Shown piece by piece: positions 3,408-32,052 of a stretch of DNA of 38,342 nucleotides; the first letter of the stretch is position 1; every line of letters starts with the position of its first letter. Below the pieces are notes generated by a model. That model did no database searches, had not been told where the DNA came from, and was given only the letters and a program-made list of their open reading frames with translations. Position numbers and translations under genes: made by a program. Origin of the DNA: a virus; IMG/VR virus record IMGVR_UViG_3300013120_000020, positions 1-38,342 of that record; one strand, given 5' to 3'.

Positions 3408-4013
3408 TTAATCCCTCCGGAAAACGAATGTCAATATATCCTCTCGCCCTAATTTTGTCTCAAAATCCTCTATCCACAACATTCTGAAACCGTTTACTGC
3501 CATATATTCCATCAGACCAACCATTGTGAAATAATGATAATGTTCATCAGGGCGAAAATGTTTGCTTTGGAGAATGTGACTTAGATTGCGAAATACCGGC
3601 ATTGATATAATAACTATCTGCTTGGCAATCCTTTCAAGGGCTCCGGCAGTATCCTTTATGTGCTCAAAACTATCGAAAAATGTGATCGCTGAGAACTTAT
3701 TCAGATCATCATTCCAAAAATCACAATACCGGTCAATCATTTTTAATAATTTTATGGCTTTGGGGTTTACATCGTATCCCCATGCCTTATCAACGCCCCA
3801 TGCTTCAATCAAATTACCTGCCCCAATACCAATATCAAGTATATTGCCGGATGATGGAATATAATCTAAAAGTAGTCTTATCCGATGCTCTGTGAGTACC
3901 TTCCCCATATCTGTATATCCATATTGACGATATTTCTCAAAGTAAGCATCGTCATACACAAAATCTTCTACCGGGTAATAGCCATATCCTTTTTCTTTAT
4001 TCCACTTCAGCAT
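3408..4013 (-). CDS. Class I SAM-dependent methyltransferase
   Basis: A 201-residue Rossmann methyltransferase. Motif I is NILDIGIGAGNL (58-68), an acidic ribose-binding position follows in WGYDVNPKAI (79-87), and the FFDSFEHI strand (112-119) matches the motif IV region of UbiE/COQ5-like small-molecule methyltransferases. It is the last gene of a three-gene glycan block with a second methyltransferase and a GT9-like transferase, overlapping the former by 17 bases. By context it probably methylates a sugar or glycan, but the substrate is unknown. Bases 3706-3727 are repeated exactly at the 3' end of the YqaJ gene. Confidence 0.8.
   Translation of the reverse strand: MLKWNKEKGYGYYPVEDFVYDDAYFEKYRQYGYTDMGKVLTEHRIRLLLDYIPSSGNILDIGIGAGNLIEAWGVDKAWGYDVNPKAIKLLKMIDRYCDFWNDDLNKFSAITFFDSFEHIKDTAGALERIAKQIVIISMPVFRNLSHILQSKHFRPDEHYHYFTMVGLMEYMAVNGFRMLWIEDFETKLGREDILTFVFRRD
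3706..3727. repeat. 22-bp exact repeat, copy inside methyltransferase gene
   Basis: Identical to 11827-11848 in the same orientation, starting TCATCATTCC and ending TCACAAT. Here it encodes part of the YCDFWNDD segment. In the other copy it is read in a different frame as the C-terminus of the YqaJ protein, so shared protein ancestry does not explain it. Confidence 0.9.
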
Positions 4014-4524
4014 ATTCTTCTATTATTGCCTTTCCTTTTCGCCATACTGTTAGAAAGTTATGCCATTCATCAGCTTCATCTTCGCCATGAACAAGACAAT
4101 ACCTATGATGAAGTTCCTGATAAATCACATCAAAATCAAAGTCATGTCGGTGTTCGGGCTCATTTATTGCAAGGTATTTCTCCCAAGATTTGTGCGGAAG
4201 GTAAAGAACCAAATATCCTTGAGGCTTCAACACTCTCGTCCATTCAGAAATAGCATCTCGCCAATCAACTAAGTGCTCAAGGCAATGGCTACTGAATACA
4301 AAATCCTGGGTAGCCGGCCCTATCCCATATAAATCTATCGCATCTCTTACATAATGAACAGTACCTACTTGTTGCATGAATTTGATACATTCTGTCTGGA
4401 TATCTACTCCGCTTGCGGAAGGAAAAGGCTGATACCCACATCCAATATCTATGCCAAATCCCCGGCAATACTTTTCAATTTCCTGAGTTCTCCAAATCCA
4501 TCCTGGTAAGCTTTTTGGTATCAT
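3997..4524 (-). CDS. Class I SAM-dependent methyltransferase
   Basis: A 175-residue methyltransferase with motif I as GFGIDIGCGYQPFP (22-35), an acidic residue in GVDIQTE, and the FVFSSHCLEHLVDW segment typical of Methyltransf_11-type enzymes. LKPQGYLVLYLPH is the late strand common to the fold. ATG 4524 follows GGAGGAAAT and is preferred over the in-frame ATG 4539, which lacks a ribosome site; it overlaps the glycosyltransferase end by 4 bases. The tight coupling suggests that both methyltransferases and the glycosyltransferase work on one glycan. The substrate cannot be read from the sequence. Confidence 0.82.
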   Translation of the reverse strand: MIPKSLPGWIWRTQEIEKYCRGFGIDIGCGYQPFPSASGVDIQTECIKFMQQVGTVHYVRDAIDLYGIGPATQDFVFSSHCLEHLVDWRDAISEWTRVLKPQGYLVLYLPHKSWEKYLAINEPEHRHDFDFDVIYQELHHRYCLVHGEDEADEWHNFLTVWRKGKAIIEEYAEVE

Positions 4525-5393
4525 ATTTCCTCCAACCATTCAAAAGTGTGTAATATCTCTGTCTCCGATATCTCTTTATTACAAGCTCTGTGCTGATTCT
4601 GTATACAATTACAGAATGGATCGGGAGCAACGAACTTGAATTTATCTAAGTCCATAATGCTTTTATCTAGCAATATGCTCGGTTTGATGCTTCCTCCAAA
4701 AATACAAAAGCACTTCGCCTTCATTGCGATACTAGCGAGCATGATGAATCCAGGAGAACATAAAACCATATCTGATAGTGCTATGAGCCCGAATACTGTT
4801 GTCCAATGAAGATTTCCATGATTGAATTCTAAATCTACTTTCTCGGGGATACCATCAAACCATTCCTCAGTATTATCTGCCACACTAATAAATGTGTAAT
4901 CTTTTCGGTGTTTTTTTATTATGAGATTGATATATTCCATACGAGGGTTACGGCTGAAGTTGTGCCATTCATGGCGGCATGAAGGGAATTTGACGAGGCA
5001 GATCTTTTTGCCATTGGCGATCATCTTAGCCCGGTAGATCCATTCAGGGTTAATGGGGATATAAAAAGAATTAGGCTCAAAAGCAGAATCAAGCCTGAAA
5101 GACTCAATTATCGTTTTTCCGTCATATATTTTTTGATCATGGTAGCACATCCTAATGACTTCGCACTTCGGAGGTAACTCTGCCCATAAAGATTCACTCT
5201 GCAATTTAATGTTCTTTTTCTGAGTTTTTAGTTCTGTATCTGGTTTCAAGAATTTTATTCCATAATCAGCCCAATAAAGTTCAGGAAAAGGCGTACAAAC
5301 ATAGACCTCATCGTGATACTTCTTGGCCTCCATTACAAAAGGCCTCATGTAAAGAGAATCACCAAGTCCGTAGTATCTGTCAAATGCTATCAT
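4521..5393 (-). CDS. GT9-like glycosyltransferase
   Basis: A 290-residue protein resembling the heptosyltransferase (GT9) superfamily. It has an N-terminal glycine loop, GLGDSLYMRPFV (9-20), a central Rossmann half with KICLVKFPSCRHEW, and a late segment (ALSDMVLCSPGFIMLASIAMKAKCFCIFGG) matching the nucleotide-sugar side. It ends with a cysteine-bearing DPFCNCIQNQHRACNKEI, as in many GT9 enzymes. It probably transfers a sugar to a surface glycan or a virion glycan. The ribosome site is weak (AAAGAAAA). Bases 4845-4866, encoding EWFDGIP, are repeated exactly at the end of recT. Confidence 0.7.
   Translation of the reverse strand: MIAFDRYYGLGDSLYMRPFVMEAKKYHDEVYVCTPFPELYWADYGIKFLKPDTELKTQKKNIKLQSESLWAELPPKCEVIRMCYHDQKIYDGKTIIESFRLDSAFEPNSFYIPINPEWIYRAKMIANGKKICLVKFPSCRHEWHNFSRNPRMEYINLIIKKHRKDYTFISVADNTEEWFDGIPEKVDLEFNHGNLHWTTVFGLIALSDMVLCSPGFIMLASIAMKAKCFCIFGGSIKPSILLDKSIMDLDKFKFVAPDPFCNCIQNQHRACNKEISETEILHTFEWLEEI
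4845..4866. repeat. 22-bp exact repeat, copy inside glycosyltransferase gene
   Basis: Identical to 9702-9723 in the same orientation, starting GGGGATACC and ending ACCATTCC. Here it is coding (EWFDGIP). In the other copy it spans the recT stop codon and forms one arm and the loop of a hairpin. Confidence 0.9.
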
Positions 5394-6802: not shown

Positions 6803-6806
6803 TCAT
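6717..6806 (-). CDS. Possible 29-aa protein coupled to the methyltransferase
   Basis: ATG 6806 overlaps the methyltransferase stop (ATGA) and follows AGAGGATATT at ideal spacing. The peptide starts MKILTCYSARYYGARGGRKK and is strongly basic. Only the ribosome site and the overlap support it. It could equally be a non-functional frame in a decaying region. Confidence 0.3.
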   Translation of the reverse strand: MKILTCYSARYYGARGGRKKGQKNKVVSN

Positions 6807-8710
6807 AATATCCTCTGCCAATTCTTCTTCATATTTCTGTTGTTTTGTATATCATTTATACGCCTTTGTGCTATTTTGAAATATTCAGATTCTTTTTCTA
6901 TACCAATAAAATCTCTATCAGTATTTACGCAAGCTATTCCAGTAGTTCCAGCCCCCATAAATGGGTCTAATACAACCCCGCCAGTTGGAGTTTTAGTTAG
7001 TGTACATAAATATTCCATGAGTTTAAGTGGTTTTACTGTTGGGTGGTTGTTTTTGTTTACCATTGGTGTTTTTTCAGGGTCGCTATCTGGTGGTCTGTGC
7101 ATTTTATATTTCTTATCCTCCAACCCCTCACACCCCTCATTCCTTTCCTTCTTACTTGCCTTTGCTTGGTATAGAAATCTTTTTGGTTCTGACTTTTCTG
7201 TTTTTCGGATGTAATTTTTGATGGCAGGAAGCACATAACCAAACAATTTCAAAAGGTTTTGAGTAGTCTGGGTGGTGTCTATGCTGTCCATCTGCTCCAC
7301 ATAGTTGGCAAGGTTCTGGATTAGGATACATTTTCTGTAATTTCCAATAAAGTCCTGAATAACTTGTGATGCCTCTTGGGATTGCACATCCTTTTGGCTC
7401 TCCGATATTGCTACAAGACCTTGAACAATATCTGTTCCGCATGAGTCGCACAGGTTTCCCACATACTTTACAAGCTGGACGGATTTGTCGTTTAGCTTCT
7501 GAGTAGCATTTTTTTGAGCAATACTTTCTGTTGTTTGACTTATACTCCCAGAACTCTCTTTTGCACTTCGGGCAGATTTGCTTTTCCATGTTTCCTCCTT
7601 GTTGGTGTCTTTATGCAAAGTATTATAACAAAGAGAGCATTCATTGTCAAGTGATATAGATTTAAAGAAACGGGCAGCTGAGCCTGAATCACCACCATAA
7701 TTCCCTTTAATAGTTCCACCACCACCCATAAAACTATTACCAGTCCCATCGCCCCTCTTGTGTCCACTATTTAGATTCCCACTTTTCGTATCAGGAAACA
7801 ACCCCACAACCTCATCACTACCATCATGTATTATATTGGCTGGGAAACGGCCTTGGGGGTGTGGTTTATCTCCAAAACTTCCGTTTTTAAATATGTCACC
7901 CTTTTCTTTGCTATTACTCGCCCTCCACTTATATCTGCCTCTAACCCTCCCACCATCTATATTTAATCCACTTACTCCCCATTTAAGAGCATTATTAGCA
8001 TAAGTTCCATCATTAGGTTTCTGTGCTACTATAATAGGCTCATAAGCTGGTTTTAGTGCTGTTCCCCAGCCTTCCCACTTTTTGGCTCTGTCTTCCGTTA
8101 TCTCTGTCTTGTTTTGGTGTTTATTTGAATAGTCGTTAGGTCGGTATCCCTGTCCGTGTTGAAGTTTAGCATACCCTAAAGCACCATTACTGCTATCCCC
8201 AGTACCATTCCAAGAAGCATTGCCTGTTTTTAAGTACTTATCCAAGTTCTTGCCTATATTATAAGATTTAGGAAATCCACTACCGTATAACCACATAATA
8301 CAATCCTTTAATATCCAACCAGCCTCTTCACAAGCACAAGCTACTCTGTGATACAATCTAGGACTTCCAAAACATAATAAATTTCCACCTGGTTTAGTTA
8401 CTCTTAAAAGTTCTTTAAATATAGGTCTAAACCATTCTTGAAATCCTATGTGTCCTTGTAAAGATTGGTCATACAAACCTGCAGCCGCAGCATTACTATT
8501 AATTCCTTTTAAAGGAGACTTCCTAACATCTTTCTTAATCTTTGTTTTTTTGTATCCTTTTGCTACTTTCTCTATTCTATTACTTTTAAAAGTATCCCAT
8601 TCCTTCCCCATAAATCCCAATCCATAAGGTGGGTCAGTAATAACAGTATCTACTGAATTTTCAGCAATAGTTGCCATAGCATTTAAACAGTCATCATTTA
8701 TCAGATTCAT
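6803..8710 (-). CDS. DNA methyltransferase (N6/N4 type) with a 150-residue insert
   Basis: A 635-residue enzyme that should methylate DNA bases, probably adenine-N6, protecting phage DNA or altering its regulation. The catalytic motif DPPY is at 26-29 and the SAM-binding DPFMGAGTTG near 582, the beta-class order (PF01555 family). Between AARFFK and RFLYQAKASKKERN, which normally lie close together, about 150 residues are inserted (roughly 354-505). This block has CxxC pairs (CSLC, CDSC) and coincides with an HNH gene and its promoter in another frame. ATG 8710 follows GAGGTTAAGA; an in-frame ATG at 8722 is possible. Whether the insert is tolerated, spliced or harmful is unknown. Confidence 0.82.
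   Translation of the reverse strand: MNLINDDCLNAMATIAENSVDTVITDPPYGLGFMGKEWDTFKSNRIEKVAKGYKKTKIKKDVRKSPLKGINSNAAAAGLYDQSLQGHIGFQEWFRPIFKELLRVTKPGGNLLCFGSPRLYHRVACACEEAGWILKDCIMWLYGSGFPKSYNIGKNLDKYLKTGNASWNGTGDSSNGALGYAKLQHGQGYRPNDYSNKHQNKTEITEDRAKKWEGWGTALKPAYEPIIVAQKPNDGTYANNALKWGVSGLNIDGGRVRGRYKWRASNSKEKGDIFKNGSFGDKPHPQGRFPANIIHDGSDEVVGLFPDTKSGNLNSGHKRGDGTGNSFMGGGGTIKGNYGGDSGSAARFFKSISLDNECSLCYNTLHKDTNKEETWKSKSARSAKESSGSISQTTESIAQKNATQKLNDKSVQLVKYVGNLCDSCGTDIVQGLVAISESQKDVQSQEASQVIQDFIGNYRKCILIQNLANYVEQMDSIDTTQTTQNLLKLFGYVLPAIKNYIRKTEKSEPKRFLYQAKASKKERNEGCEGLEDKKYKMHRPPDSDPEKTPMVNKNNHPTVKPLKLMEYLCTLTKTPTGGVVLDPFMGAGTTGIACVNTDRDFIGIEKESEYFKIAQRRINDIQNNRNMKKNWQRIL
7152..7589 (-). CDS. HNH homing-type endonuclease, out of frame inside the methyltransferase gene
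   Basis: A 145-residue protein. Two four-cysteine fingers (CPKC...CSKKC at 6-28; CKVC...CSRSC at 40-59) precede an HNH domain with CQLC (94-97), RHHPDY (104-109), VWLCASCH (116-123) and a final QKLH. This is the layout of small phage HNH nucleases that home into phage genes. The frame differs from that of the enclosing methyltransferase, yet both stay open for 146 codons. It has its own consensus promoter (7622-7650) and AAGGAGG four bases before ATG 7589. Its last codons run into original methyltransferase sequence. It is a mobile gene inserted in a conserved gene. Confidence 0.85.
   Translation of the reverse strand: MEKQICPKCKREFWEYKSNNRKYCSKKCYSEAKRQIRPACKVCGKPVRLMRNRYCSRSCSNIGEPKGCAIPRGITSYSGLYWKLQKMYPNPEPCQLCGADGQHRHHPDYSKPFEIVWLCASCHQKLHPKNRKVRTKKISIPSKGK
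7622..7650 (-). promoter_or_regulatory. Consensus sigma70 promoter for the nested HNH gene
   Basis: On the minus strand: TTGACA (7650-7645), a 17-base spacer and TATAAT (7627-7622), with the expected start near 7614 and the HNH ribosome site at 7600-7594. In the methyltransferase frame the same bases encode DNECSLCYN, so the first CxxC pair of the insert is in fact promoter sequence. It matches the early and late promoters in both hexamers and spacing. Confidence 0.85.
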
Positions 8711-8948
8711 TCTTAACCTCATATTTTGTTTTGTAACTCACTTGAACACCATTAGTTATCCGTTTAACTTTAATCTCTGAATCGCTTGTAATTGTTTTAA
8801 GTGCTGTATGGCATGAGCTACAATACTCATGAACTTCGCTTGTGTATACGTCATCTTCTTTCATCCATCTACGGCATGGTATTTCTACACTGTCACAATT
8901 CAATGACATCTCTTTACAAAAAGGACACTCTTTTGGTTTTCTTATCAT
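8694..8948 (-). CDS. Zinc-ribbon protein, 84 aa
   Basis: The N-terminus has CPFC (8-11) and further cysteines (CDS, PCRRW). A YCSSCHTAL motif follows about 30 residues later, consistent with a bound zinc ion. The rest is beta-rich. This CPFC...CxxC layout occurs in restriction-alleviation (Lar-like) and other small phage proteins, but I cannot assign it firmly. The start follows AGGAGAGAAC, and the stop overlaps the methyltransferase start region by 17 bases, suggesting the two are translated together. Confidence 0.65.
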   Translation of the reverse strand: MIRKPKECPFCKEMSLNCDSVEIPCRRWMKEDDVYTSEVHEYCSSCHTALKTITSDSEIKVKRITNGVQVSYKTKYEVKNESDK

Positions 8949-15139: not shown

Positions 15140-16006
15140 TTACCCAATAGCTTCTACTATATCCGGGATGCTGAATAAGTCCGTAATATCGTACGGACAC
15201 TCATACAGCTTTTTCCCCGTCCAATCTACTTCAGCAAAACTCTTTGTAATCCCATGCGTAAACTTCTTATCTTGGCAACGGAATATATCCCTGTGGCATT
15301 CGTAGCCATATATTCCTGGTTTTGTTCCAACCCAACAAACAACGCTTGGCAAATCGAAAGCGGCTGCACAATGCTGAGCAAAGCTATCAATAAGCAACCT
15401 TTTATCGCTTATTTTAATCACCGCCATTAGATCACGGATATTTCCGGTTACTGTTTCAACGCCCTGTAATCCAGGTTGGTTTTGTTTCCTAATATGCAGA
15501 ATATGATATTTCTGCTGTAAGATACTAACCAACGCTTGTGCTTGGTTATGGGGCAAGTCTCTTGACCAGGTATACATATCCCCTATACCGCCGTTTGCTT
15601 GCAATACCAAAATGGGTTTTCCTCTTGAGAATTTAGCTTTGGCAAATTCAATCTCAGCTTGGGTAAGATAAATCTGTGGGTTTATTACTACATCATCTAC
15701 ACCGCAAAGATCGCACCAAGTAGTTCTTAGGTGTTGTTCTTTTTTAATGAATGTTCCTTCTTTATATGGTTCCTGGTTAAAAATAATAGTATCATTATGG
15801 ATATAATCCTCTCTGAAATATAAAGGATTATCGATCGGGTATACCCTATAAACGTTGGGATTATTTACAAATATATCCATGTAAGCAGTCAGAACAACTA
15901 TACGATGCTCTGGATATTTTTTCTTTAGTGATGAGATAACTGCTGTTGCAACAATGTTTTTACCTATTCCACCAGCTATCGAAAAAACTAGAAATGGTTT
16001 ATTCAT
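15140..16006 (-). CDS. GT9-like glycosyltransferase
   Basis: A 288-residue protein of the heptosyltransferase-like fold. It has the N-terminal loop SIAGGIGKNIVATAVI (9-24) followed by KKKYPEHRIVVLTAY. Late in the chain come LLIDSFAQHCAAAFDLPSVV and WVGTKPGIYGYECH, the GT9 donor-site signature. It would add a sugar to a surface or virion glycan. ATG 16006 (8 bases of overlap with the sulfotransferase, AAAGAG upstream) is preferred over 16024. Coupling to the sulfotransferase suggests that a sugar is added and then sulfated, or the reverse, but the acceptor is unknown. Confidence 0.8.
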   Translation of the reverse strand: MNKPFLVFSIAGGIGKNIVATAVISSLKKKYPEHRIVVLTAYMDIFVNNPNVYRVYPIDNPLYFREDYIHNDTIIFNQEPYKEGTFIKKEQHLRTTWCDLCGVDDVVINPQIYLTQAEIEFAKAKFSRGKPILVLQANGGIGDMYTWSRDLPHNQAQALVSILQQKYHILHIRKQNQPGLQGVETVTGNIRDLMAVIKISDKRLLIDSFAQHCAAAFDLPSVVCWVGTKPGIYGYECHRDIFRCQDKKFTHGITKSFAEVDWTGKKLYECPYDITDLFSIPDIVEAIG

Positions 16007-16712
16007 AACCAAACTCTTTCCCATCCTTTGCGTATCGTTTCTCTGCCATTTGTCTTAACATGGGAGTGTAGTATCCATTCAAATCATACTTTTTTGACTT
16101 ATTAAGTCTGTCTAATTCAATTTTAATCCCAATTTCTTTGGAGATATTTTTAAGATCATCTGTCAATGTTTCCATCCGGGCCAGATAATCTATCTTTATG
16201 CCCTCAAGAAACGTATGCTGTGGTCGCCAGTGTACATCGCAGTATTGATCTGGCGAATTAGCCACGAATCTAACAAACTGCCCGAAGGAGATCGTGTCGT
16301 TCTCTGATCCGTTAATGTGCCGGTTAATCTGCGGTACGGGTGGATCTTTCTTAGTCAAGAACTTCCAAACGTAAGCTGAGAGTAATCTTTCTATCGGATT
16401 CCTAACTACTGCAAAAACAAAATAGTCATCAAAGAAAAGCTTGTTGTACTTAGCCCCTTGCCCATTGTGAAAATCAGCACTCTTTTCGTGTGTGTACTCT
16501 TCATCTCCTTTTAGCTTTGCATACCAGTTTTTAATGCTAGTACAAGCGTTTTTGGAGATCGGCACATACACAAATTTATGCTCATCATCAACGAGCAACG
16601 GCCGCCAGAAGTTAGACTCTATGACACTAACCCCAGGAAATGAATTGGCAATAGTCTGTTTCACAACAGGCCCAACCATACCGCCATAAACAGGAAGATA
16701 TGCTTTCTGCAT
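15999..16712 (-). CDS. Carbohydrate sulfotransferase-like protein (Sulfotransfer_2 type)
   Basis: A 237-residue protein with both PAPS-binding motifs of the HNK-1/carbohydrate sulfotransferase group: VPISKNACTSIKNWY (50-64) for the 5'-phosphosulfate and VVRNPIERLLSAYVW (102-116) for the 3'-phosphate. This family transfers sulfate from PAPS to sugar hydroxyls. It starts at the fibre stop codon and overlaps the glycosyltransferase, so it belongs with the fibre and glycan genes. Sulfating the host surface, the virion fibre glycan or an exported polymer are all possible. The fold call is strong; the substrate is open. Confidence 0.85.
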   Translation of the reverse strand: MQKAYLPVYGGMVGPVVKQTIANSFPGVSVIESNFWRPLLVDDEHKFVYVPISKNACTSIKNWYAKLKGDEEYTHEKSADFHNGQGAKYNKLFFDDYFVFAVVRNPIERLLSAYVWKFLTKKDPPVPQINRHINGSENDTISFGQFVRFVANSPDQYCDVHWRPQHTFLEGIKIDYLARMETLTDDLKNISKEIGIKIELDRLNKSKKYDLNGYYTPMLRQMAEKRYAKDGKEFGYE

Positions 16713-18721
16713 TATTGCATTTTTGTTTCTATTGCTTTTACTCTCTTCTGTAAATCTTTTGTCGCATTAACCAAAGATGCTATAATAGGTCTATTATTGA
16801 GCGATAAGTAACCGCTTGTCGTAACTCCTACTGCTTCAGGAATAAACTTCTGTACGTTCTGTGCTGAGAAACCAACCTTATTGCCTTGATCTTTCCCGTT
16901 CTTCCAGTTAAAGCGAATAGGTTTAATTTCTTTAATCGCACAACCTCCCCCACAGTAGTCACCTGAGACATTCTTGAGTCTCTCATCAGACACATCATCT
17001 ACTAGGCAGCCACTTGAAAAACAGGCGTTGTTTGTACCTCGTCCGTTAAAGTAGTAATAACAACCACTAAGGACATGAAGCCAAGAATTCTGATAGCCGA
17101 CTATGGTGCTACAGGCTGACGGATTAGAAAGGCATGATCCAAATGCAGCCGCATAATCTGCCTGTGTGGTATTGAAGGATCCGAACGCAGATCCGAACAT
17201 CCCACATGCGGTATTTGTATTACCGATTGCGTTAGCGTCACATTGACACGCTTGGTTAAGAAATCCAATCGCAGATGAGTTTTTACACAAAGCGGTGTTA
17301 GCACCACCTATCGCTGAGCTACAACACCCCCAACCTTGACTTATGTATCCTACTGCCGTAGCGTTTTCCGAACTCGCATTAGAACAATACCCTACTGCTG
17401 TCGCACTTGAATCACTAGCCGAGGCAAATGCACCAACTACTGAAGAACAATTACCCGTTGCATTTGTTGCATCCCCTACCGCAACACTTGAAGGGTTTTG
17501 TGCTAATGCACCTTTGCCAACAGCGACAGAATCAGAGCCACACGCTTGAGCACCGCCTCCTACAGCCGTTGCGGTAATATCAAGTGCTTTCGCTACATTC
17601 CCTACCGCCGTTGCACAGTTATTATTGGCACAAGCTTGTAATCCTACTGCCAATGCTTGATCGCCACCAGATGCTACGATTGCATCTACGCCAATAGCTG
17701 TGCTGTAATTACCACAAGCCCTCGCATTAGGCCCATATGCCGCAGAACAACATCCTGGAGCTATTGCCCGAGAACCACCAGCTATCGAATCATGATTTGA
17801 AGCATTTGCTCGATACCCAATCGCTGTTGCCCTATACCCTGCCGCTGTCGTACAAACACCATGAGCCGAGGCGTAACATTGCGATGCTTGAGACATATAT
17901 CCAATCGCAAGAGTGGCCACATGAGAAGCAACATTGGCATACCCAAACGCTGAACTGTATGTACAAGTTGCACAATTTTGCATACCTGCTGCGGTGTTGT
18001 AATCCTGTGTCGCTTGATTGAGAAAGCCAATTGATGTAGAACAACCACCAGACGCAGTATTGCCATGCCCTACTGCCGTAGCTTGTGTCCCACTTGCAGT
18101 ATTACAATTCCCCAATGCTGTTGTTTCAGCCCCAGATGCAACTTGCGTTGCTAATGATCTACAAGATTGAATGTCAAGAGCGTTTGAACCCCTTGCGTTA
18201 CCAGTCTTATTCAAAGTCATTCCATCGATAGTGCCAAAAGCACCAGCGTTGTTAATCTGTAAATCTCCATCTACACCACCGGGGACTTTGGCGTTTAGTT
18301 GTGCCTGGATACCAGAAGTCACTCCGCTAACATATCCCATCTCGGTGGGCGTAACCCCTCCGATGTTGTTTCCGTTCATATCGAGATTACCACCTAATTG
18401 TGGAGTAGTATCTTCAACTACATTTTGCAGATAACCAGCCAAATCGCTAGTAAGAGCAAACGTACCAGTACCACCTGGGATTGTGTGAGTATTGACTGTG
18501 CCTAAACTGGTGATATTAAATGTTTGGGCGTCAAGATTTCCTCCCAACTGTGGCGTGGTATCCTCAACGATATTCTGTAAAAACGACAGATTACTTTGTA
18601 GAAATGCTTGTATTTGTGTAACCGTTAATTTCTTAGACGTACCAGCTTCATTAATGGCTATCTCATTCGCTCCGGCGGCGGCTGCTGCTGCCGTCAATTC
18701 ACTAATCTTTTTGTCTGCCAT
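16712..18721 (-). CDS. Cysteine-rich YadA-like tail fibre with S74 chaperone
   Basis: A 669-residue fibre that should bind the host. The N-terminal 150 residues contain two VEDTTPQLGGNLD repeats. A long run of YadA-head (Hep_Hag) repeats follows, of the form xAIGYxAxAS (about 180-550), which trimerise into a left-handed beta roll. From Ser 578 (SDERLKN) the C-terminus is an S74 intramolecular chaperone with the Ser-Lys dyad that cleaves itself off. The odd feature is cysteine: 28 by my count, all after residue 180 and repeated at equivalent repeat positions. ATG 18721 follows GGAGGTGTATT. It is transcribed just ahead of the sulfotransferase and glycosyltransferase. Confidence 0.88.
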   Translation of the reverse strand: MADKKISELTAAAAAAGANEIAINEAGTSKKLTVTQIQAFLQSNLSFLQNIVEDTTPQLGGNLDAQTFNITSLGTVNTHTIPGGTGTFALTSDLAGYLQNVVEDTTPQLGGNLDMNGNNIGGVTPTEMGYVSGVTSGIQAQLNAKVPGGVDGDLQINNAGAFGTIDGMTLNKTGNARGSNALDIQSCRSLATQVASGAETTALGNCNTASGTQATAVGHGNTASGGCSTSIGFLNQATQDYNTAAGMQNCATCTYSSAFGYANVASHVATLAIGYMSQASQCYASAHGVCTTAAGYRATAIGYRANASNHDSIAGGSRAIAPGCCSAAYGPNARACGNYSTAIGVDAIVASGGDQALAVGLQACANNNCATAVGNVAKALDITATAVGGGAQACGSDSVAVGKGALAQNPSSVAVGDATNATGNCSSVVGAFASASDSSATAVGYCSNASSENATAVGYISQGWGCCSSAIGGANTALCKNSSAIGFLNQACQCDANAIGNTNTACGMFGSAFGSFNTTQADYAAAFGSCLSNPSACSTIVGYQNSWLHVLSGCYYYFNGRGTNNACFSSGCLVDDVSDERLKNVSGDYCGGGCAIKEIKPIRFNWKNGKDQGNKVGFSAQNVQKFIPEAVGVTTSGYLSLNNRPIIASLVNATKDLQKRVKAIETKMQ

Positions 18722-29662: not shown

Positions 29663-30265
29663 CTATTGAAACTCCTTCATCTGCGGGCCACCCCACTTAC
29701 TATTGACCCAATATTCATCATTCATCTCCGGGGGCGTACCAGTTTGTGAGTTCTCTGATTTCGCTTTCGGCAAAGACACTGATTCATAATATTCAAGCAG
29801 TGCTTGTGATTTAGGCCCTGAGTTGAGAATGGAGAAACTCATTTCATGTGCGAGTTTATCAGAAAAAGCTTCTGAAAACTTAGGAATATATGTACCAGGA
29901 CTCTCATTTTTCCAGACATAGATAATTCCAAGACTTGCTGTATCAGAGAAAATTATATCACCTTCCCGATACCAAGTAGCTCCATCATCAGAGACACCAA
30001 ATATCCTTATTGTATCGTTAGGTACTTGATAGGCGTATGAAAGGGTTGTTCCTGGCGGACTCCATGCTATCTCATCTGATACTTGAGCTAGATTTACCCT
30101 CTTAGTAGCAAACGTCCAAAGACATTCACTGAGGATACTCTCAAGTGAAATGGTATAAACTCTATTCGCTATCCTAGCCTCTTCGCTTGAGTCATCCGTA
30201 GAGGTAATTGGACGTGCCCCAAGTTTGGTTAGTGCTCTATTGATAATTTCGACTTTTGTGGCCAT
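29663..30265 (-). CDS. Tail tubular protein A (adaptor, T7 gp11-like)
   Basis: 200 residues beginning MATKVEIINRALTKLGARPI, the hallmark of gp11-like adaptors. It continues with ANRVYTISLESILSECLWTFATKRVNL and YAYQVPNDTIRIFGV. This protein forms the ring between the portal and the nozzle. ATG 30265 follows AAGGAGGGATTGCA and lies inside the 3' end of the sulfotransferase gene, so the latter is spliced tightly into the structural operon. Confidence 0.9.
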   Translation of the reverse strand: MATKVEIINRALTKLGARPITSTDDSSEEARIANRVYTISLESILSECLWTFATKRVNLAQVSDEIAWSPPGTTLSYAYQVPNDTIRIFGVSDDGATWYREGDIIFSDTASLGIIYVWKNESPGTYIPKFSEAFSDKLAHEMSFSILNSGPKSQALLEYYESVSLPKAKSENSQTGTPPEMNDEYWVNSKWGGPQMKEFQ

Positions 30266-30966
30266 TGCAATCCCTCCTTGACGCTATTTACAAATTCATA
30301 ATCTTCGGGTTTGAATATATTCTTATGATCTCCAACAATGCCTTTCCTCGGCATAATTGAGCGATGTTTTTTAATACTTGGCAATTGATATCCTAAAGGC
30401 TTATGATTTAAGAAATAAGACAATCTATCAATTGAGTTCTCTGTCGACCCTATAATCTCCTCATAAGTGATACGGAAGGTAGAATCGCACCCAAACCAGT
30501 CTTTTCGGTGCAGAAGCACCATTTCAACCATGTTCTTTGCGTCATAAACACGCCATTTTCGCAAGAAAGGGTCATCATTAGGGTCAAACCTTAGATAATC
30601 TGAGAAACTGCTGTTTAAGGGCAAATAATTAGCACACTGCCGAAAGTAATGATATCCACTTACGAGAGTATCATAGAGGCATCTTTCGACATATATAATC
30701 TTCCAATCTAACTGAAGATGATTCTTGAGTTGTGCGAGGGTACTCCAAAGATGGTGGGTTTTGTAGATGCGGCCTTCCATCCTTGCCTCACCTATTGTGA
30801 TGGGCGGCTCTTTCTCGTTAAGATTAAGATAGGGCACACATCCTCCACCATGATCCGGCTTGAAAAAGTTCAAGTAGATCAGATTGATAGTCAAGTTCGT
30901 CCCACTTCTAGGATGAGACGCAACAAGAATGTTTTGCATAGACCCATTCTCTTGTCGGTTCGCCAT
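30229..30966 (-). CDS. Sulfotransferase (Sulfotransfer_1-like)
   Basis: 245 residues. The 5'-phosphosulfate loop is ASHPRSGTNLTINLI (16-30), followed by YKTHHL (68-73) and a 3'-phosphate region VERCLYDTLVSGYHYF (93-108). These are in the order and spacing of PAPS-dependent cytosolic-type sulfotransferases, and the family differs from that of the second enzyme at 15999. It overlaps the Rossmann-like gene by 59 bases and tail tubular A by 37, and so is part of the late structural operon. ATG 30966 follows AGGAAATCTATC; ATG 30939 is an alternative. The substrate could be a virion glycan or a host glycan. Confidence 0.8.
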   Translation of the reverse strand: MANRQENGSMQNILVASHPRSGTNLTINLIYLNFFKPDHGGGCVPYLNLNEKEPPITIGEARMEGRIYKTHHLWSTLAQLKNHLQLDWKIIYVERCLYDTLVSGYHYFRQCANYLPLNSSFSDYLRFDPNDDPFLRKWRVYDAKNMVEMVLLHRKDWFGCDSTFRITYEEIIGSTENSIDRLSYFLNHKPLGYQLPSIKKHRSIMPRKGIVGDHKNIFKPEDYEFVNSVKEGLQWPQKSKLSIEH

Positions 30967-31573
30967 GATAGATTTCCTGCATTGTACCTGACATAAACAT
31001 TACATTGTCCCGTGCGAAAGCATTGTCCCGATAAAATTCTTTCCATACATTTCTCGTTGCCCCATCAAACCAGCTTGAACTATTATCTTTATGGACAGGG
31101 GGGTCAAAGTAATGCCCTGATGTATCAAGCGGCACGCCACATAAGATTATCTTATTATAGCCTATCGCAATAGCTATTTTCACTGCGAGCATAGCTGATG
31201 AACCTCCATTGGTTGATACTTTCTCCCATACAAAATCAAGCCCAGGAGAAGGTTTACTTGAATGTAATAAACAAGCCTCAAGCATTGATTTTTCTTTACG
31301 CATGATGGATAAAGCTTTGGGGAGTCTTTGGTGGCAACTTACAATGTGCTGGATTGTCTCTGCCTTGAATTGACCGGCGATATCGTTAATACACATAATT
31401 TCATACTCACGCTCAGTATTAAATAAAGACTTAGCTTTCCTGTAATCTTCCCATACTGTACGGCCTCCACCGAGGATCAGTAAACCGCCAGGGTAGACTT
31501 CTTCATACGCACCTACTATCCTCGGTTTTTCTCCATAGCCTGATATCTCTCGATATTTCCAAGGCATTATCAT
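30908..31573 (-). CDS. Rossmann-like protein resembling MptE/DUF115
   Basis: 221 residues. A glycine-rich first strand, GGLLILGGGRTVWEDY (29-44), is followed by CINDIAGQF, HIVSCHQRLP, GGSSAMLAVKIAIAIGYNKIILCGVPLD and a histidine/acid-rich end. This pattern is shared with the DUF115/MptE-like group, some of which act in glycan transfer such as flagellin or motility-protein glycosylation. It is followed at once by the sulfotransferase, so a joint role in modifying a glycan is plausible but not shown. Confidence 0.65.
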   Translation of the reverse strand: MIMPWKYREISGYGEKPRIVGAYEEVYPGGLLILGGGRTVWEDYRKAKSLFNTEREYEIMCINDIAGQFKAETIQHIVSCHQRLPKALSIMRKEKSMLEACLLHSSKPSPGLDFVWEKVSTNGGSSAMLAVKIAIAIGYNKIILCGVPLDTSGHYFDPPVHKDNSSSWFDGATRNVWKEFYRDNAFARDNVMFMSGTMQEIYHGEPTREWVYAKHSCCVSS

Positions 31574-31620
31574 CCCTCAAGGACTCGGGAGGAGCATGAG
31601 CCCCTCCCTATCCAATTCAC

Positions 31621-32052
31621 TCATTTTGTCCAACGAACAATACTCTTAATTGTCCCAGTAGCAGCTCCTCCTGCTGTAGTAATCTGAATTCGAGTGTCAT
31701 CATTGGTAGTGTCAGTACCGATCACATACTGAAGCCCGTCCACCCGGATAGCGTCAGTTTCACCGGCACTTGAAGCAGACGTAGCCAAGATATACCTATC
31801 GGCATCCCCGGCATCTCCGACTGCTAAAGTTACTCCTGATCCTAGAGCATCAAAAGCAATGTGAACTCCCGTAACTTTTGCGTTGGAAGGGAGAACAGCA
31901 ATATCAATCGTAGAGTCTGCTGCGAGAGCTGCGGCCTCATACGAATCAGCGATAATCTGTTCATTTGCCTTCCAGAAGCCCTGGCTAATGGCATTGTCAC
32001 CACTCGGGCCTGCATCATACTTCGTAACATTTGCACCTTTTACTGCTGCCAT
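31621..32052 (-). CDS. Capsid-associated protein (possible decoration protein)
   Basis: 143 residues, alanine/threonine-rich and beta-rich, starting MAAVKGANVTKYDAGPSGDN. It continues through ADSTIDIAVLPSNAKVTGVH, GSGVTLAVGDAGDADRYILA and a RIQITTAGGAATGTIKSIVRW end. Proteins of this kind are found right after the major capsid gene in many short-tailed phages. Decoration or head-tail completion is inferred. The start follows GAAGGAGGTTAAATC. Confidence 0.7.
   Translation of the reverse strand: MAAVKGANVTKYDAGPSGDNAISQGFWKANEQIIADSYEAAALAADSTIDIAVLPSNAKVTGVHIAFDALGSGVTLAVGDAGDADRYILATSASSAGETDAIRVDGLQYVIGTDTTNDDTRIQITTAGGAATGTIKSIVRWTK

Follow-up and report, generated by a model that had tools for sequence, protein, structure and literature searches.

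What do a sulfotransferase gene and a glycosyltransferase-like gene do directly behind the fibre gene of a phage? The DNA analysed here in its full length of 38,342 bases (the window) is the IMG/VR virus record IMGVR_UViG_3300013120_000020. Its capsid relatives place the virus as an HTVC010P-type podovirus, and its phage genes include a terminase, a portal, RecT and a DPBB lytic-transglycosylase-like gene. Thus, the host is most likely a bacterium. An N6/N4 DNA methylase whose conserved domain is seemingly split by a long internal insertion lies at 6803-8722. The three genes in question lie on the minus strand in the arrangement given by the original prediction. The fibre gene (16712..18721) encodes YadA-head beta-roll repeats (Pfam PF05658, 2.9e-16) and a C-terminal Peptidase_S74 intramolecular chaperone (PF13884, 5e-7). 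Its stop codon shares 1 nt with the start codon of the sulfotransferase gene (15999..16712) in a TAATG junction. The GT9-like gene (15140..16006) overlaps the end of the sulfotransferase gene by 8 nt if translation starts at 16006 (ATGAATAA, MNKPF), which gives a protein of 288 aa. An in-frame ATG upstream at 16024 would give 294 aa and an overlap of 26 nt.

The 237-aa product of the sulfotransferase gene belongs to a PAPS-dependent family. The PF03567 (Sulfotransfer_2) profile matches residues 39-229 at 92.5 bits (cut-off 22; E 6e-26). The PAPS-binding motifs are present: SKNACTS at residues 53-59 is an intact 5'-phosphosulfate loop, and RNPIERLLS at 104-112 keeps R104 and S112 of the 3'-phosphate motif RxxxxxxxS. 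Thus, SKNACTS and RNPIERLLSAY (104-114), which had been singled out as carbohydrate-type sulfotransferase motifs, were read correctly. Both regions are conserved in a homologue from a Diapherotrites archaeon (L230:7115-7861), whose identity to the window protein is 67% over 236 aa. The claim that this phage carries two sulfotransferases of different families also holds; the other, unrelated one (30229..30966, minus strand) belongs to PF00685 (Sulfotransfer_1, E 1.2e-13) and lies in a separate insertion. Together with an MptE-like gene (30908-31573), it is inserted between two structural genes (29663-32052), while in the nearest relative this slot is filled by another insert, one part of which encodes a 1029-aa protein (L046 7812-11616). 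The Pfam matches of the fibre and of both sulfotransferases go far beyond what chance would give.

Is the third protein a GT9 enzyme? Pfam gave no PF01075 match for the window protein, and a sequence profile search of the PDB gave no match. The homologue in the Pelagibacter phage HTVC112P scores 22.1 bits with PF01075 against a cut-off of 22. The label "GT9-like", which Pfam does not give to the window protein, agrees with the predicted fold. With an AF2 model built on 17 related sequences (pLDDT 87), Foldseek found 3tov first (E 3.5e-14) and then WaaF, WaaC, and TibC; the PDB matches, which include 1psw, 2h1f, and TibC 4rb4/4rap, indicate a GT9 fold. IMG/VR scans with the single window sulfotransferase or GT protein gave no match, while alignment queries did, and a GT alignment retrieved at least 491 relatives of the GT9-like gene. 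The window protein is about 40% identical to the viral family and, in the GT domain, 52% identical to the archaeal copy. It was revealed that the GGxGK motif of the family aligns on the G-D of E. coli WaaC and WaaF. Thus, the position of the catalytic Asp (WaaC Asp13 or TibC Asp110) is occupied by Lys16 in the window protein and by Lys in 128/131 dereplicated homologues. R149, D150, D207, and H212 are nearly invariant among 133 homologues, as expected of an active site. No Cys column is conserved at 85% among these 133 homologues, and the four-Cys iron finger of TibC was not found. The family has the fold and the C-terminal donor-side D207/H212 pattern in common with WaaC and WaaF, the ADP-heptose:LPS heptosyltransferases of GT9, but it has G-K in place of G-D, a WxRDxP motif of its own, and an identity to them of 15-17%. 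Judged from its sequences, the family has the GT9 fold and is strongly constrained, but the almost complete replacement of the catalytic Asp by Lys sets it apart from canonical GT9 enzymes and from the TibC family. The donor and the mechanism may therefore differ. A second GT9-like-looking gene of the window (4521-5393, phrog_6804) keeps the G-D motif, and its homology to the fibre-linked gene is not detectable by sequence. Two overlapping methyltransferase genes precede it, and the three together span 3408-5393.

The family-wide Lys may also mean that the GT9-like protein is a GT9-derived fibre-assembly chaperone or binding protein, and that the sulfotransferase acts alone, for example on Tyr or Ser residues of the fibre. 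Chaperone genes often follow fibre genes, and the GT9-like gene of HTVC112P has no adjacent annotated sulfotransferase gene. I consider this reading very unlikely, since the four almost invariant residues resemble a working active site and an S74 chaperone is already built into the window fibre.

Is the pair a peculiarity of this virus? I examined 52 viral loci obtained by a scan using GT sequences alone, with two genes on each side of the GT9-like gene. Among the loci listed, which were dereplicated at 95% GT identity and do not represent independent events, 35/52 have a same-strand sulfotransferase gene within two genes of the GT9-like gene, against a background of 11/935 ORFs further away. 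A scan begun from the GT of Marine virus AG-345-L05 was left out of this count because it is biased to the neighbours of that virus. In both scans, adjacent genes of the pair mostly overlap or lie 0-15 nt apart. The two genes are thus coupled, as had been proposed, across unrelated viruses. The usual viral partner is a Sulfotransfer_3 protein (PF13469; Pfam-checked) rather than a PF03567 protein; in the window, this role thus falls to another enzyme. In many of the viral loci, an APS kinase gene (PF01583, 6e-8 to 2e-18) extends the run. APS kinase makes PAPS, and its presence strengthens the reading of these genes as a real sulfation pathway.

The neighbours on the other side are fibres. A beta-roll-like or S74 protein is encoded within five genes of the GT9-like gene in 33/59 viral loci, among the loci listed. 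The score used is a simple home-made motif count, which misses the window fibre, and by the same score beta-roll proteins in the capsid-relative loci numbered 0/236. The isolate HTVC112P is siphovirus-like and has a gene for a tape measure; its S74 tail fibre gene runs into the GT9-like gene through a TAATG junction like that behind the window fibre. In AG-345-L05, the order is a fibre-like LamG gene, a 2OG oxygenase gene, a sulfotransferase gene, the GT9-like gene, and a carbamoyltransferase-like gene. The view that the pair tracks the fibre and not the phage backbone is supported, because tblastn found neither gene in the loaded capsid-relative loci. A PF03567 family search of 43 capsid relatives also found none; this is a weak negative, since the control genomes gave none either.

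Other genes recur in these viral loci. A NodU-like carbamoyltransferase gene directly follows the GT9-like gene in many versions from the second scan (L148-L183 and L064 7992-10576), and the combination with a sulfotransferase recalls Nod factors, which are decorated with sulfate and carbamoyl groups. Two more genes are found repeatedly in the cassette (L109 4669-5500 and L128 10616-10978). One is small and cytidylyltransferase-like (PF01467), and the other is conserved, encodes roughly 150 aa and has no assigned family.

The genes might be auxiliary metabolic cargo whose product is a small molecule or a lipid with sulfate or sugar added, and the place beside the fibre might be a mere cargo hotspot. 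In some cyanophages, the set also has genes for a carbamoyltransferase and a 2OG oxygenase, and the PF03567 gene of Synechococcus phage ACG-2014f (phrog_3347, "galactose-3-O-sulfotransferase") sits among many nucleotide-sugar genes. The ACG-2014f protein shares the family and the PAPS-binding motifs with the window sulfotransferase, but the identity is only about 25%, and its gene is part of a nucleotide-sugar island and stands several genes away from a fibre gene. I regard the cargo reading as unlikely: other cargo is much less constant than the pair, as the above counts of 35/52 and 11/935 show, and the beta-roll partners are still there in cellular genomes, which have no phage hotspot.

Those cellular copies were found in genome_contigs, in which an alignment query matched and a single protein did not. 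The exact triad of a YadA-head/S74 protein, a PF03567 sulfotransferase, and a GT9-like protein exists on a Diapherotrites contig (L230). The S74 protein has a hydrophobic N-terminal segment, and the GT9-like protein is fused to a GT25 domain. Further glycan genes, a Sulfotransfer_3 gene, and a CysC-CysD-like fusion for PAPS synthesis lie downstream. The possibility that L230 is a mis-binned phage contig was rejected; the contig is archaeal because its flanking 808-aa gene is present in 67/83 genomes of the phylum. The window fibre and the archaeal protein (L230:5174-7075) are 41% identical over 511 aa, and in the tree the GT of the window groups with that of L230 as its sister (SH-aLRT 99). 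Diapherotrites as the host of the window phage is disfavoured, since the RlpA-like DPBB protein suggests a murein-bearing bacterial host and the capsid relatives infect bacteria. Within the phylum, the GT9-like family is confined to this genome, which has two copies; the second directly follows an S74 beta-roll gene. The phage-type S74 chaperone beta-roll proteins of L230 and L263, in tandem in L263, have an N-terminal hydrophobic segment and apparently serve as surface proteins. Thus, the predicted order of fibre, sulfotransferase, and GT9-like genes is fully conserved in one archaeon, while about a third of the viral loci have no sulfotransferase gene nearby. A further scan revealed no PF03567 triad beyond the window and this archaeon; the scan with the closest GT sequences returned a 24% match alone.

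The other loci in the genome collection are mostly from Bacteroidota. A few (e.g. L245 and L251) resemble phage or prophage, while several are clearly chromosomal, with lpx or cysC/N/D genes close by. Usually a beta-roll protein comes first, then an NHL protein with a T9SS sorting tail, and then the GT9-like protein, often with a Sulfotransfer_3 protein. Among 23 usable genome-collection loci, L230 included, 20 have a beta-roll or S74 protein gene up to four genes upstream of the GT9-like gene, and a sulfotransferase gene lies within three genes in 10/23. In the tree, 24 Bacteroidota sequences group together in a single clade among the viral ones. The direction of transfer between viruses and cells is a suggestion only, because the root is not fixed.

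Does the pair act on the surface of the infected host instead? It might add sulfate or sugar to the LPS or capsule and thereby block the adsorption of rival phages or the re-adsorption of progeny. The GT9 enzymes WaaC and WaaF build LPS cores, phage-encoded receptor modification is a known strategy, and this phage has the second GT9-like-looking gene and the two methyltransferases. On the other hand, the same triad stands beside a surface beta-roll protein in the archaeon, and in unrelated viruses the pair comes after beta-roll/S74 fibres. Flippases and other membrane glycan genes are absent around the pair, and hydropathy shows no clear transmembrane segment in either protein. Modification of the host surface is thus rather improbable. 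The original prediction had left two sites for the glycan. The fibre-linked one gains support from the archaeal triad and from beta-roll/S74 neighbours above background. The envelope-linked one is disfavoured, because the genes adjoin surface beta-roll proteins in the archaeon and in Bacteroidota without membrane glycan machinery. The partner common to all contexts is a repeat-built fibre or adhesin, and not LPS, the host envelope, or the phage backbone.

The occurrence of these genes beside repeat-built fibres in unrelated viruses, an archaeon, and Bacteroidota suggests that the enzymes decorate the fibre itself. I think it somewhat probable that the three overlapping genes are a portable cassette for fibre-specific glycosylation and sulfation, similar to TibC/TibA. 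The fibre is the presumed acceptor protein; its composition is 4.2% Cys (vs 1.2% elsewhere) and 17.8% Ser/Thr. Cys-rich fibres near GT9-like genes were also seen in the archaeon (5.8%, L230 5174-7075) and in L065 (8009-10285, visibly many). I infer that both enzymes are active and act in sequence on the fibre. The GT9-fold protein would put a sugar on Ser/Thr residues that the neighbouring fibre exposes on its beta-roll repeats, in the manner of TibC on TibA, and the donor sugar is possibly not heptose, given Lys16. The sulfotransferase would then transfer sulfate from PAPS to that sugar, or to the fibre. PAPS would come from the host in the case of the window phage, while many relatives bring an APS kinase. 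The product of the cassette would be a sulfated glycan, which may coat the virion fibre with acidic groups before assembly. The decoration may serve stability, receptor binding, or shielding.

A wider reading is tempting, and I put its chance slightly short of even. A mobile module of a beta-roll fibre, a GT9-fold transferase with Lys for Asp, and a sulfotransferase, often with an APS kinase, may make sulfated glycoprotein fibres and may have been exchanged among tailed phages, a DPANN archaeon, and Bacteroidota; the cells would apparently have taken up fibres of phage type, along with the enzymes that decorate them, for use as surface adhesins. The presence of the cassette in both the archaeon and Bacteroidota points to virus-cell exchange of complete fibre-plus-decoration units. 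If true, a sulfated glycan on receptor-binding fibres would be a post-translational layer of host recognition that is invisible to sequence-based host prediction.

How does the cassette compare with known systems? In the open-access literature, I found no account of a phage sulfotransferase together with a tail fibre and a glycosyltransferase. In their passages on Sulfotransfer_3 genes in OM43 phages, the authors of PMC10580990 call the function of phage sulfotransferases unclear. Those are phage sulfotransferases too, but they belong to a Pfam family other than that of the window gene, and the GT9-like/fibre cassette is absent from these passages. The recurring neighbours suggest an answer for the sulfotransferases of aquatic phages: the substrate is probably the fibre. 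Mycobacteriophages carry glycans on virion proteins, as proposed here, but on the capsid and tail tube rather than the fibre (Freeman et al. 2023, cited in PMC12619734), and sulfation is not mentioned where PMC12619734 cites that work. A close parallel is found in the bacterial autotransporter heptosyltransferases (BAHT), such as TibC/TibA and Aah/AIDA-I (PMC4358343), which have a GT9-type fold as the GT9-like protein does. TibC is a protein heptosyltransferase acting on the beta-helical adhesin TibA, with the catalytic Asp-110 and a four-Cys iron finger (PMC4358343). BAHT enzymes modify a beta-solenoid adhesin, and the window GT9-like gene adjoins the gene of a YadA-head/S74 fibre, its putative substrate. 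In contrast, the viral family has Lys in place of Asp-110 and no conserved Cys in place of the iron finger, and BAHT enzymes have no sulfotransferase partner. Sulfation is thus filed here as the new element relative to the known adhesin or virion glycosylation systems.
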